From NCBI RefSeq assembly GCF_037126435.1, contig NZ_CP147020.1, positions 186,001-250,000 on the forward strand: a stretch of 64,000 bases of DNA, in the 5' to 3' direction. The notes beneath the pieces were generated by a model. That model was not told the origin of the DNA and did no database searches. It was given only the letters and a program-made list of their open reading frames with translations. Below, piece by piece: positions 6,771-11,863 of the stretch (positions are counted from its first letter, which is position 1; every line of letters begins with the position of its first letter). The DNA comes from Bernardetia sp. ABR2-2B. Its GTDB lineage: Bacteria; Bacteroidota; Bacteroidia; Cytophagales; Bernardetiaceae. The translations under genes and the position numbers were made by a program.

Positions 6771-7294
6771 TTACTTACATTTCTTTACTATTCATTTTTT
6801 TAGAAAACCTTACTTCAAAATATAACTATTTGTATTTCAATAGAATACTTTTTTAACACTTAAAAAAAATGCTATACAGGAAAAAATAAGGTTTTTGATG
6901 AATGATAAGTAGATAAATTGAGGTTTTCGATAAAAAAAGTAATACTTATATCAAAATAGACGATAAAGACACGAAAAAGCACAAACTAATGTGTTTTTTT
7001 TGCTTAAAGAAACATCTTTTGTTACCTTATAAACGAAGAGTGTTCTATTATTGGACTTTTTTAGGTTTGTAAACTCTTAGTTTCTCCAAGACACTAAGGG
7101 TTTGAATGAAGAATGTTTTTTCAAAAACTATTTTCCAAAACTCATACATCTTGAGTGTATTACTTCTTATCCTTATTTTTTACTCCTTGAAAGTGAAAAT
7201 AAGGATTTTTTATGCTCTTAATTTTCTATAAAACTTCTCGCTGTTAGACTTATCTATTTAACGTAATTGGTATTATATTTCTGCTTTTATGTCC

Positions 7295-7366
7295 CTGTCA
7301 GACACTTCAGAGTGTCAGACAGCTATGTTGGACTAAATTGTCTGACACCTTGAAGGTGTACTGACA
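7295..7366. repeat. Two adjacent TGTCTGACAC-type palindromes
   Basis: The first stem pairs CTGTCAGACACT (7295-7306) with AGTGTCAGACAG (7311-7322) around a 4-base loop, 11 of 12 positions. The second pairs TGTCTGACACCT (7339-7350) with AGGTGTACTGACA (7354-7366). Related words occur at about 28320 and 33448, so this is probably a dispersed palindromic repeat rather than a gene-specific site. Confidence 0.6.
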
Positions 7367-7480
7367 AGATAGTTCGCAAATCAGCAAATAAAGAAGTATA
7401 GACTGGTATTTACATAAATTCTAATACCGAGTTCACGTTATTTATCTAATTTCATAGTTAATTCTAAAGTTCGTATTTGA

Positions 7481-8086
7481 CTATATATCTTCAAGAATAC
7501 AAATCACTTCTTCAAAATCGTTTCCCAAAAAGCATTTTATTTCTTTTCGTTGAGGATTAAGAACCAAGCCAAAATGCCACTCCTTATCAAAAAAAGTAAG
7601 GTGATTTTCTTTGTCAATGTGAGAAAAATAAACTTCTAAATGTTTTGGGTGGGTGTGATACCAACCGATAAGTTGTTTTTTAGATTCTGCTTCTTCTATT
7701 TTTTCTTGTTCCTCTAAAAGAGAATGCCAAGTAGTGTGATTAAAATGAAGGTGTCTCATCGAACCTTCAGCTGTTTTGGCAGCAAGGGCATAATTAACAA
7801 TTCCTATAAACTTAGGTTTTGTGCTTTCATCTTCATTATTTTTATATTCTATTACTTCTCCAAACAGTAATCCTCCTTGTTCTACTTGATTATCTTGAGT
7901 GTCTTTTCCAAATCCAATATGGCTTTTTATAACATTAAAGGCTTCTTTATGGATAAAAATAGAATCTAAAATAGGTTTTTCTTTAAAAAATTTTTTTAAA
8001 TTCTCTTCAAAAAAAGATTCCCAAAAAGGCGTAGTTTTAGCTTTTTTGGGAAAATAAGGAGGCGTTTTTTTTATGATTTTGAACAT
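7481..8086 (-). CDS. JAMM (JAB1/MPN) metallopeptidase, predicted Ubl-processing or deconjugating enzyme
   Basis: This 201-residue protein carries the full JAMM zinc motif: a catalytic-type Glu69 in VEQGGLLFGE, then H144-T-H146-P, exactly seven residues, S155 and D158 (HTHPKHLEVYFSHID). Family knowledge: JAMM enzymes cleave isopeptide or peptide bonds after ubiquitin-like proteins, and bacterial members often sit beside Ubl, E1 and E2 genes. It is the last gene of the minus-strand operon, 27 bp after the DinB-like gene and downstream of the E2 and Ubl genes. The first 60 residues are basic and aromatic and lie outside the domain. A RadC-like or cysteine-metabolism (Mec+) role is less likely because of the E2 neighbour. 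Confidence 0.85.
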   Translation of the reverse strand: MFKIIKKTPPYFPKKAKTTPFWESFFEENLKKFFKEKPILDSIFIHKEAFNVIKSHIGFGKDTQDNQVEQGGLLFGEVIEYKNNEDESTKPKFIGIVNYALAAKTAEGSMRHLHFNHTTWHSLLEEQEKIEEAESKKQLIGWYHTHPKHLEVYFSHIDKENHLTFFDKEWHFGLVLNPQRKEIKCFLGNDFEEVICILEDI

Positions 8087-8113
8087 TTAAATGTAGTATT
8101 TTCTAATTTTAAA

Positions 8114-8680
8114 TCAATACTTTCCTTTTGCTTCAATGGCTTGTTTGACATGTGCCAAATGATGATTTGAATGCCAAGCATAATTTGCTATAAGGTCAAA
8201 AAGAGTAAAATAAACTTGATGTTCTGGATGGAAAAATTGCCTTTCCAAATCTGATTCAGATAAAGATTCAATGATTATATGTAGCTTTTTATGAATCCCT
8301 TCCAAAATAGAAATAGAAACCTCAATAGGCAAAGTCATGTCTTGTAGTTCTGCCCATTTATTTTCTACATACGGTTTTATAGTTGGTTCTTCTTCTGTAA
8401 GAGTAAGTTTGAAACGGATAAGTGCATTGATATGACTATCCGAACAATGATGAATAACTTGCTTTATTGTCCAACCTTGAGGGCGATATTTCCAGTCTAA
8501 CTCTTCCTGTGTTAAGTTTAGAAGTACAGCTTTTAGGCGCATAGGAAAATAAGAAATATCGTTTTTCCACTCCAAAACCAAATCTTTAGCTTCTGGAAAC
8601 TCAAATACTGGCTTTTCAAACTTTCCAATTGGATATTTAAATTTGTCTAGTTCTATTTTATTAAGCTGATTTGTTTCCAT
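8114..8680 (-). CDS. DinB/YfiT (BstA-like) superfamily protein
   Basis: This 188-residue four-helix-bundle protein has the two signatures of the YfiT/BstA branch of DinB: QGWTIKQVIHHCSDSH around residues 68-83, and YAWHSNHHLAHV around 167-178, which together supply the three metal-binding histidines (His77 or His78, then His170 and His174). Family knowledge: members are metal-dependent thiol-S-transferases, including bacillithiol transferases, or putative hydrolases. The gene lies between the E2-like gene (61 bp) and the JAMM gene (27 bp) on the same strand. Whether it takes part in Ubl chemistry or is a passenger cannot be read from the sequence. Confidence 0.85.
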   Translation of the reverse strand: METNQLNKIELDKFKYPIGKFEKPVFEFPEAKDLVLEWKNDISYFPMRLKAVLLNLTQEELDWKYRPQGWTIKQVIHHCSDSHINALIRFKLTLTEEEPTIKPYVENKWAELQDMTLPIEVSISILEGIHKKLHIIIESLSESDLERQFFHPEHQVYFTLFDLIANYAWHSNHHLAHVKQAIEAKGKY

Positions 8681-8741
8681 TTTTCAAGCTAGGATAATAT
8701 ATAAAAACAAAACGCAGACTAAGGTCTGCGCTAGATATGAT

Positions 8742-9356
8742 TTAATGAATTCTGAATCCACCTCTTTTGTCTTCTTGTGTGGGTTGATTTTGTTGTGCTG
8801 TTTCTGTGGTGGTAGTATCTGTTCCAAAACCTGTAATTTTGAATCCTGAACTTTTCTTAGCAGCACGTTCTTTAGTTGGGTCAGGCATTTCTTGTTTATC
8901 ACAAGGAAAAATACCACTATTTCGCATACGCAAATACCAATTACGAGCTTCTTCATTGGCAGGGCTATGTTCGTTCGTAATTTCCATATCATATTGTAAT
9001 GTACGAATCATACGAATCATGTGTCTTCCCAATCCTTCCGACATTTCCCAAGTTCCGTAACACCAACGCCCATTTTTAAACCAATTTGGGTGATAAATAA
9101 ATGGCTCATCAAGTAGTTCTAATTGTGGTGGAGCTTGTGGATAGGCTTCTGGAAGTGTAATTTTGAGTTTGTGTTGATTACGATAAGTAGGTTGTGTATC
9201 TGTAATGCTTCTAACAAAAATCGTTACTTCGTACTCTTCTACGTAAGGAGCATTACCCACAAGTGGCTCAAAGGAAAGCAATGAACCACTAATATTTTCC
9301 ATTTCTTTATAATCATTCGCCAATCGACGATTTCGTATTTCTTGAGGAGTTGCCAT
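8742..9356 (-). CDS. E2 ubiquitin-conjugating-enzyme-like protein
   Basis: This 204-residue protein matches the UBC fold motif by motif: a beta meander ending in LPEAYPQAPPQLEL (the YPxxPP element, residues 68-81), then HPN at 89-91, exactly seven residues, and Cys99 in NGRWCYGTW, which is the spacing between HPN and the catalytic cysteine in eukaryotic E2s. The helix SPANEEARNWY (131-141) corresponds to the N-P-x-N-x-E-A region of E2s. A low-complexity T/Q-rich tail follows (about 160-204). An RWD-type inactive relative is unlikely because the cysteine is kept. It sits between the Ubl and JAMM genes, so a Ubl-conjugation step is the natural inference. No E1 gene is nearby. Confidence 0.88.
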   Translation of the reverse strand: MATPQEIRNRRLANDYKEMENISGSLLSFEPLVGNAPYVEEYEVTIFVRSITDTQPTYRNQHKLKITLPEAYPQAPPQLELLDEPFIYHPNWFKNGRWCYGTWEMSEGLGRHMIRMIRTLQYDMEITNEHSPANEEARNWYLRMRNSGIFPCDKQEMPDPTKERAAKKSSGFKITGFGTDTTTTETAQQNQPTQEDKRGGFRIH

Positions 9357-9361
9357 TTTAT

Positions 9362-9386
9362 CAGTTATCAGTTATCAGTTATCAGT
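9362..9386. repeat. Heptamer tandem repeat, about 3.5 copies
   Basis: CAGTTAT is repeated three times and followed by CAGT. It is the reverse complement, in another phase, of the ten-copy GATAACT array at 51611-51680. It lies just upstream of the E2-like start codon, in the gap to the Ubl gene. Confidence 0.85.
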
Positions 9387-9514
9387 CATGCAGTTACTAG
9401 TTAAACTCCAATAATTGTATGACTTAATGGTTAATAGTTTATTTTTATAAGATTGACACTAAAAAATACTTTTTGTTGATTTTAATTCTAACTTTTAAAA
9501 TCATGCTTCTAAAT

Positions 9515-9769
9515 TTATTTTCCTGCATCAGTTGCTGGAATCACCCTAAAAGTAGTTCCGTGAGTGATACCTGCTTGTCCTAATGTTTGGTGATTAAGCA
9601 TACGATTTCCTCCTTTTATGGCAAGGTTATATCCTTGCTGACTATTTTTGATAAAATCATGTGTTATAAGTTCACCTATAATTTCTTGTACACTCATTGT
9701 GTCGTCTAAAGTTGCGCTAATCATGCGTCCATCAGTTGGATGTACAAAGTTTACGTTTACGTCTGCCAT
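9515..9769 (-). CDS. Ubiquitin-like protein, EsaB/YukD-type beta-grasp
   Basis: This 84-residue product has a beta-grasp layout: an N-terminal beta hairpin (VNVNFVHPTDGRMISATLDD), a central helix (SVQEIIGELITHDF), a third strand (YNLAIKGGNRML), then LGQAGITHGTTFRVIP. It resembles YukD/EsaB and prokaryotic ubiquitin-like proteins. It ends in ATDAGK rather than a bare diglycine. It is the first gene of the operon with the E2-like, DinB-like and JAMM genes, which makes a modifier role more likely than a type VII secretion role; no WXG100 or EssC gene is present. A 145-158 bp gap with heptamer repeats separates it from the E2 gene. The fold is inferred from sequence pattern only. Confidence 0.75.
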   Translation of the reverse strand: MADVNVNFVHPTDGRMISATLDDTMSVQEIIGELITHDFIKNSQQGYNLAIKGGNRMLNHQTLGQAGITHGTTFRVIPATDAGK

Positions 9770-10723: not shown

Positions 10724-11863
10724 ATGGGACTTTGGGACAAAATTAGTGGGCAGTTTATCGATGTCATCGAATGGATAGACAATAGCCGAGACACAATCGT
10801 TTATAGATTTAAGCGAGATGGAAACGAAATAAAATACGGAGCACAACTTACTGTTAGAGAAGGACAACAAGCTGTTTTTATTAATGAAGGACAATTAGCA
10901 GACGTTTTTCCTCCTGGTAGGTATGAGCTTACAACACAAAATATGCCTCTCCTAACAACTCTAAAAAGTTGGAAATATGGATTCAATAGTCCGTTTAAGG
11001 CAGAAGTTTATTTTGTAAATATGCGCCCATTTGTAGATAATAAATGGGGAACTCGTAACCCAATCCGTGTAAGAGACCCAGAATTAGGCTCTATGGGAGT
11101 CGAAATTCGTGCTTTTGGTAGTTTTGATTTTAAGGTGATTGAACCAAGTCGTTTTCTTATTGACATTGTAGGAACAGACGGACACTTTACGACAGAAGAA
11201 ATTACGACAAAGCTCAAAGGTTTGGTAGTTAAGCAGTTTACAGACGGATTAGGAGAAAGTAAAATTCCGTTCTTAGATTTGGCTGCTAATTATGAAGAGC
11301 TAGGTGCTATGATTAAGAAAAAACTAGTGTTGGATTTTGACCGTTATGGTGTCGATATTACGGATTTTTTGGTAGAAAATATGTCTCTGCCAGACCACGT
11401 GCAAAAAGTGCTTGACCAAAGAAATGAAATGGAAATTATGGGGCGTTCAATGCAAGGAAACCTCAATAATTATACGCAGTTTAAGATGGGACAAGCTATG
11501 GAAGACTCGGCAAACAATCCGAACGGAGGAAATGACGGAATGAGTATGGGAATGGGAATGGCAATGGCGAATCAAATGTCTAACCAAATGCAAAACCAAC
11601 AGCAGAATCAAAATCAGAACCAAGGACAGCAGCAGAATAGTACGCCACCTCCAATGGCTTCTTTTCATGTACACTTAGACGGACAACAAGCAGGACCTTT
11701 TCCGTTAGGAGAAATACAAAAAATGATACAAAGTGGAAAAATTACTCGTACTTCTTATGTATGGAAAGCAGGAATGGCAGAGTGGGCAGCAGCTGAAAAA
11801 GTAGCAGAACTACAAGGTCTTTTTGGAAGTGTTCCACCACCATTGCCACCACCACCCATGTAG
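10724..11863 (+). CDS. SPFH-domain protein with C-terminal GYF_2 domain
   Basis: The first 230 or so residues form an SPFH/band-7 type domain (it begins MGLWDKISGQFIDVIEW and includes the characteristic LVVKQFTDGLGESKIPFLDLAANYEELG region). A Q/N/M/G-rich linker occupies about 240-310. Residues about 313-365 form a GYF_2 domain (FHVHLDGQQAGPFPLGEIQ, then SYVWKAGMAEW). The end is proline-rich (VPPPLPPPPM). Family knowledge: the YdjI/virion-core-like SPFH group is cytosolic or membrane-associated, and GYF_2 domains bind proline-rich partners. The tail could be a ligand for its own GYF domain. It is divergent from the Ubl operon, 954 bp away. Confidence 0.8.
   Translation: MGLWDKISGQFIDVIEWIDNSRDTIVYRFKRDGNEIKYGAQLTVREGQQAVFINEGQLADVFPPGRYELTTQNMPLLTTLKSWKYGFNSPFKAEVYFVNMRPFVDNKWGTRNPIRVRDPELGSMGVEIRAFGSFDFKVIEPSRFLIDIVGTDGHFTTEEITTKLKGLVVKQFTDGLGESKIPFLDLAANYEELGAMIKKKLVLDFDRYGVDITDFLVENMSLPDHVQKVLDQRNEMEIMGRSMQGNLNNYTQFKMGQAMEDSANNPNGGNDGMSMGMGMAMANQMSNQMQNQQQNQNQNQGQQQNSTPPPMASFHVHLDGQQAGPFPLGEIQKMIQSGKITRTSYVWKAGMAEWAAAEKVAELQGLFGSVPPPLPPPPM

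Follow-up and report, generated by a model that had tools for sequence, protein, structure and literature searches.

A probable dispersed ubiquitin-like conjugation pathway with a family of candidate membrane-anchored RING/U-box-like E3 proteins in Bernardetia

The genome of Bernardetia sp. ABR2-2B (G000) probably encodes a dispersed ubiquitin-like protein (Ubl) conjugation pathway, in which one core would feed about 51 membrane-anchored RING/U-box-like proteins that are candidate E3s. The core of this pathway is well supported: the genes and their motifs, their conservation, the homology of the E1 to operonic E1s and the strict co-occurrence of the components all point to Ubl, E2 and JAMM proteins that act in protein modification, as an earlier note made from the DNA letters alone had suggested. 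Bacterial E1-E2-Ubl-JAB systems with a RING are an already known kind of system; as far as an incomplete literature search could find, neither the dispersal of such a pathway nor the expansion of a RING-like family to about 51 genes has been described. To our knowledge, known prokaryotic Ubl-conjugation systems are compact clusters that include no more than one or a few E3-like proteins, and are usually read as defence or stress modules.

The window analysed here, a stretch of 64,000 nucleotides, contains the Ubl locus at C1:193481-195769 of this genome. Four minus-strand ORFs lie where the earlier note had placed four genes, with Pfam and NCBIfam identities that agree with its reading, and in the order from Ubl to JAMM they are separated by gaps of 158, 61 and 27 bp. 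The first gene (window positions 9515-9769) encodes a YukD-like beta-grasp modifier of 84 aa with an invariant Gly83 (Pfam YukD, 3.8e-6, 28.0 bits against a cut-off of 27), and the second (8742-9356) an E2-like conjugating enzyme of 204 aa, whose match to Pfam UQ_con (3.3e-6, 27.2 bits) barely exceeds the cut-off of 27. The third (8114-8680) encodes a YfiT/BstA-type protein of 188 aa that matches Pfam DinB_2 and the NCBIfam model NF009807 for YfiT-family bacillithiol transferases (206 bits against a cut-off of 160), and the fourth (7481-8086) a JAMM/JAB peptidase of 201 aa, JAB1 (Pfam JAB, 2.5e-6; Prok-JAB, 1.2e-5), which is predicted to be a Ubl maturase and deconjugase. The profile HMM searches thus bear out the E2, JAMM and Ubl assignments, and the catalytic motifs were confirmed at the residues where they had been read: the E2 has YPQAPP (YPxxPP) at position 72 and HPN at 89-91, followed after exactly seven residues by the predicted catalytic Cys99, and JAB1 retains an intact JAMM signature of Glu69 (in EQGG), H144-T-H-P, seven residues and S155-x2-D158 (SHID). 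The best PDB sequence match of the E2 is a ubiquitin-conjugating enzyme of the Ubc2/Rad6 group (2.4e-6), and all of the 50 best PDB fold matches to its predicted model, which has a pLDDT of 44 from a shallow alignment, are E2s or E2-containing structures. None of the Ubl, E2 or RING-like proteins tested was matched by a curated NCBIfam model. Judged from its sequence, the locus appears to encode a UBC-fold E2 with an HPN-type Cys, a beta-grasp Ubl with a terminal Gly and a JAB protein with an intact JAMM motif. Around these genes, tandem CTGATAA copies occupy positions 9357-9395, immediately 5′ of the E2 start codon; the 1-kb intergenic stretch downstream of the JAMM gene holds inverted-repeat-like GTCAGACA / TGTCTGAC elements (7290-7390); and a divergent gene upstream of Ubl (10724-11863), which adjoins the locus in L014 too, encodes an SPFH/Band-7 and GYF_2 protein.

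Among 11 genomes of the family, E1, E2, Ubl and JAMM occur together in the same eight, namely those of seven Bernardetia and of a sister genus (G339), and the Ubl and E2 genes adjoin in all of them. The core genes are absent from the other three (G365, G405 and G295), save for a 28% ThiF-domain match in G295. Values of dN/dS against other species are 0-0.055 for Ubl, 0.05-0.08 for E2 and 0.14-0.17 for JAMM. Because Ubl, E2 and JAMM have been kept in all seven Bernardetia and in one sister genus with such low dN/dS, the locus is not a chance reading of the sequence. The eight genomes form one clade, and their co-occurrence therefore amounts to about one evolutionary event; a second lineage comes only from the operons of G202 and G606 described below. 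All seven Bernardetia genomes also possess a second JAMM protease, JAB2 (38%; L042; C1:4864959-4865453 in G000), which to the eye is nearer than JAB1 to the operon JAMM of G339 and may be the ancestral operon JAMM. The JAB2 gene adjoins a gene resembling that of the RsmE 16S rRNA methyltransferase.

The earlier note had included the BstA-type gene in the Ubl operon, and the four adjoining genes could be taken as one functional unit, with the bacillithiol transferase as a participant in the Ubl pathway, as its gene lies on the same strand with short gaps on either side (61 and 27 bp) and is next to E2 in six of the eight pathway genomes. However, a comparison of gene neighbourhoods showed that G377 and G339 lack the transferase between E2 and JAMM, and that in G352 and G325 the JAMM gene has been relocated with the transferase still beside E2. 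Because of these breaks in synteny, the transferase was ruled out as a conserved pathway member and is regarded as a neighbour only, which makes a shared operon function extremely unlikely.

The Ubl itself is 95-100% identical across the genus Bernardetia and ends in ...RVIPATDAG-K; conservation stops at Gly83, and Lys84 is predicted to be a removable tail of the precursor. A glycine equivalent to Gly83 is common to all Ubls in the alignment. The residues after it vary: with a hyphen marking the end of the conserved part, the termini read DAG-K, DAG-R and DAG-YHLC in Bernardetiaceae, PGG-K in G606 and EGG-Y in a plasmid operon of Crinalium, and the Ubls of G202 and G199 are tail-less, with VPG and IAG ends. 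The Bernardetia protein carries a single Gly, not GG. Maturation by the JAMM peptidase is implied because a near-invariant Ubl ends in Gly plus a short tail; a short variable tail past a fixed Gly, encoded beside a JAMM gene, has the look of a processed precursor. Removal of such a C-terminal tail by a JAMM enzyme, CsRpn11, has been demonstrated in Caldiarchaeum (PMC6043591).

The lack of an adjacent E1, remarked upon in the earlier note, holds for the locus but is incomplete for the genome. A whole-genome search for the ThiF family returned a single gene (C1:723517-724746), which lies outside the window and about 528 kb from the Ubl locus, so the components are not assembled in one gene cluster. 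Its product of 410 aa contains an adenylation domain with GAGAIG, a CxxC...CxxH zinc site, Cys194 and a C-terminal extension, the last of which was matched by no known UFD model in a Pfam search. In an alignment read by eye, Cys194 falls about where canonical E1s have their catalytic Cys, and it is probably the thioester Cys. The protein is 33% identical end to end, the C-terminal extension being part of the match, to the E1s of E1-Ubl-E2 clusters in the genomes of two other Bacteroidia, G202, where the homologue directly precedes Ubl and E2, and G199, where it belongs to the same cluster. Because its operonic homologues lie beside Ubl and E2, the Bernardetia E1 would be a conjugation E1 that no longer adjoins its partners; as the only ThiF-family protein of the genome, homologous over its length to operonic E1s, it may be classed as E1-like with a putative catalytic Cys. 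Its membership of the ThiF/MoeB superfamily, of which it is the sole representative in the genome, would also suit a sulphur-carrier pair of E1 and Ubl (ThiS/MoaD/Urm1-like) to which E2 and JAMM are accessory. Against such a pair, the E1 lies below all MoeB/ThiF equivalog cut-offs (128 bits against 275 for ThiF and 95 against 377 for MoeB), no rhodanese domain was found, the Ubl is YukD-like rather than ThiS/MoaD-like, and the E2 is a dedicated one with HPN-x7-C. We therefore regard a sulphur-carrier function as very unlikely and retain the assignment to conjugation.

Searches with the E2 profile showed that E1-Ubl-E2 systems are rare in the phylum, occurring in 4 of 396 genomes with that of Bernardetia counted. 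In G202 (contig C65, L025) and G606 (C11, L060), the gene order is PAAR, nSTAND1, E1, Ubl, E2, membrane-JAB and a membrane vWA-FHA protein. The G199 cluster (C19, L026) comprises Ubl, E2, membrane-JAB, a RING-matching membrane protein and E1, and VgrG and DUF4280 genes lie close to it. The PAAR and nSTAND1 neighbours in the former and the VgrG and DUF4280 neighbours in the latter hint at a link to contractile injection systems. In a member of another class of Bacteroidota (L059, G627:C14), E2 lies beside a JAB-TM-LysM protein, neither E1 nor Ubl is evident in the vicinity, and this may perhaps be another dispersed system. The plasmid search yielded one plasmid E2. The mobilizable cyanobacterial plasmid pCRI9333.03 of Crinalium (L125, NC_019754.1:38825-42302) encodes E1, two small similar proteins, of which one ends in EGGY, E2 and a JAB protein with a membrane segment, and this cluster adjoins a conjugative coupling-protein gene.

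The likeness to Bil-type antiphage operons that the earlier note had drawn is not supported by these comparisons. A Bil/Bub-like antiphage or stress-response conjugation system would contain just such parts, as Ubl, E2, JAMM and E1 are component types of prokaryotic conjugation operons (PMC1779556), and PADLOC models for E2 and JAB gave matches, albeit weak ones. However, the four components are not in one operon, and the neighbouring genes look by inspection like ordinary chromosomal genes, among which none for mobility or defence is evident. Every member of the genus searched has the pathway, and the Ubl is under strong purifying selection. In addition, phage records contained no relatives, and viral contigs searched for E2 and the RING-like domain gave none either. 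A role in defence is possible without being indicated, and we consider a system of this kind improbable; the way in which the pathway is inherited speaks for a housekeeping or envelope-related function rather than for phage defence.

The candidate E3s came to light through the RING of G199, which prompted a search of the Bernardetia genome with Prok-RING_1: it gave 40 matches, all sub-threshold and nearly all in ORFs of about 240-340 aa. The N-terminal RING-like domain of these proteins has the invariants R-x-D-x-x-T, CxxC, S-x-F, W and HC, and a profile of it found 51 intact copies and one remnant with stops, scattered over the chromosome. A strict DNA pattern detected 50 copies in this genome, 56, 39, 37, 20, 14, 12 and 5 in the other seven pathway genomes, and 0, 0 and 1 in the three family genomes lacking the pathway; a reversed control pattern detected none in any genome. 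Among 191 genomes of the order, the profile matched exactly the eight pathway genomes and no other. Among the 396 genomes of the phylum, its best two matches outside Bernardetia were in G606 (4.5e-5) and G202 (8.3e-5), and both fall within the membrane vWA-FHA protein of the E1-Ubl-E2 operon. The E-values are per genome, so that 395 genomes would yield about 0.03 such matches by chance, and a position inside the operon is not what chance would give. The matched stretch reads RRDPITQDAFEEGDNVVVKC...W and stands where G199 has a Cys/His-rich RING (RICHYC...EGQNIVVKC-KH-x2-H-x2-C-W), in each case after a common KY--YVPEKN stretch. Profile-profile alignment by hhalign gave 94.9% and 4.6e-8, a result that is not independent of the 396-genome search. 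The simplest reading of these alignments is that the first zinc site of the RING was replaced by a DPIT motif, after which the domain would have been freed and multiplied. A membrane protein in L120 (G673:C1) also has a cysteine-free DPFTG...VVVQ...TW stretch like the RING-like domain, with an E-value of 5.5e-4 that may be due to chance.

Predicted transmembrane segments were found in all 42 RING-like proteins examined, mostly as two close together after the domain. The C-termini of these 42 fall into 16 groups without mutual BLAST similarity (RDD, bacterial-PH-like, TPR and unknown), and the core domains are about 60% identical between the groups. E3s at the inner membrane would be expected to combine a constant head with a variable tail and a membrane anchor, as these proteins do, and the operonic relatives likewise have a membrane-anchored RING and JAMM. 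Modelled with AlphaFold2 from four sequences (pLDDT 65), the domain has a hairpin-helix core, for which Foldseek ranked RING E3s such as RNF13, RMR1, RNF38 and RNF165 first in the PDB, with a best E-value of 0.26 and no hit significant alone. Homology, fold ranking and co-occurrence together suggest an E3 role for the family. It may also be proposed that the core Ubl pathway is real and the RING-like family unrelated to it, consisting of lineage-specific membrane proteins with a small zinc-binding cap that share the clade by chance. The degenerate ligands would suit this proposal, as only about four of the eight RING zinc ligands are kept (the invariant CxxC...HC), and so would the score under the Pfam cut-off and the fold matches, none of which is significant singly. 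Clustering of RING-like genes near E1 or Ubl was likewise not significant in G000 or G312 and marginal, for E1, in G352, and common ancestry alone would yield much of the co-occurrence. On the other hand, the three genomes of the same family without the pathway are also without the RING-like proteins, and the best profile matches outside the family sit in E1-Ubl-E2 operons at the RING position. We judge an unrelated family to be somewhat unlikely and prefer to place the RING-like proteins in the pathway.

The scheme that we favour for the pathway is as follows. The JAMM peptidase would cut off the single residue that follows Gly83 in the Ubl; the single E1 would adenylate the exposed Gly83 and bind it as a thioester, probably on Cys194, before the Ubl is handed on to Cys99 of the E2. 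One of the roughly 51 membrane-anchored RING/U-box-like proteins would then recruit the charged E2 via its N-terminal domain, pick substrates with its own C-terminal part and direct the Ubl to them for covalent conjugation, and both the operon JAMM (JAB1) and its paralogue JAB2 would remove it. In its boldest form, towards which we lean slightly, the scheme amounts to a eukaryote-like ubiquitin economy that evolved independently in a bacterial lineage. A single near-invariant Ubl, a single E1 and a single E2 would be joined by two JAMM proteases and by a lineage-specific expansion of RING/U-box-like E3s, from fewer than 10 to more than 50 of them, which are anchored in the membrane and vary in their C-terminal modules for substrates. 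These E3s would descend from the RING of a membrane vWA/FHA protein of an ancestral operon, after the loss of one zinc site. If so, a many-E3 architecture can arise outside eukaryotes, and Bernardetia would be a tractable organism for studying what purpose E3 diversification serves, with some 50 natural variants of a minimal RING/U-box-like domain on offer. Surveys based on operons would miss dispersed pathways of this kind, because the E1 and the E3-like genes both lie away from the Ubl locus and the Ubl, the E2 and the RING-like proteins tested have no match among curated NCBIfam models.

Bacterial E1-E2-Ubl-JAB gene clusters with a RING were reportedly treated by Burroughs and colleagues in Mol BioSyst in 2011, a paper that PMC11354881 cites. 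Such clusters, with or without a RING (Iyer et al., 2006, PMC1779556), share with Bernardetia a Ubl, a stand-alone E2, an E1, a JAB protein and a RING-type partner. By contrast, the Bernardetia E1, JAB2 and RING-like genes are dispersed over the chromosome, and the RING-like module appears to have separated from the vWA/FHA protein and expanded to about 51 genes. The Bil antiphage system (BilA-D) has a similar component list of Ubl, E2, JAB and E1; in Bernardetia, however, these are not in a single operon, the only E1 of the genome being remote, and there is a large RING-like family as well as conservation throughout the genus. The Ub/E1/E2/RING/Rpn11 system of Caldiarchaeum subterraneum is likewise comprised of one Ub with a JAMM-removed tail, one E1, one E2 and RING-type E3s, and it is archaeal, compactly clustered and equipped with one or two E3s and a Ub with GG (PMC6043591, PMC5654768). 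Bernardetia differs from it in the YukD-like Ubl, the single Gly and the dozens of candidate E3s. Compared with the eukaryotic ubiquitin system, in which membrane RING E3s also exist, Bernardetia has a degenerate RING-like domain and a single E2, with no proteasome link shown; the two are alike in the HPN-x7-Cys of the E2, in a near-invariant tag and in the hierarchy that leads from one tag and E1 through few E2s to many E3s.
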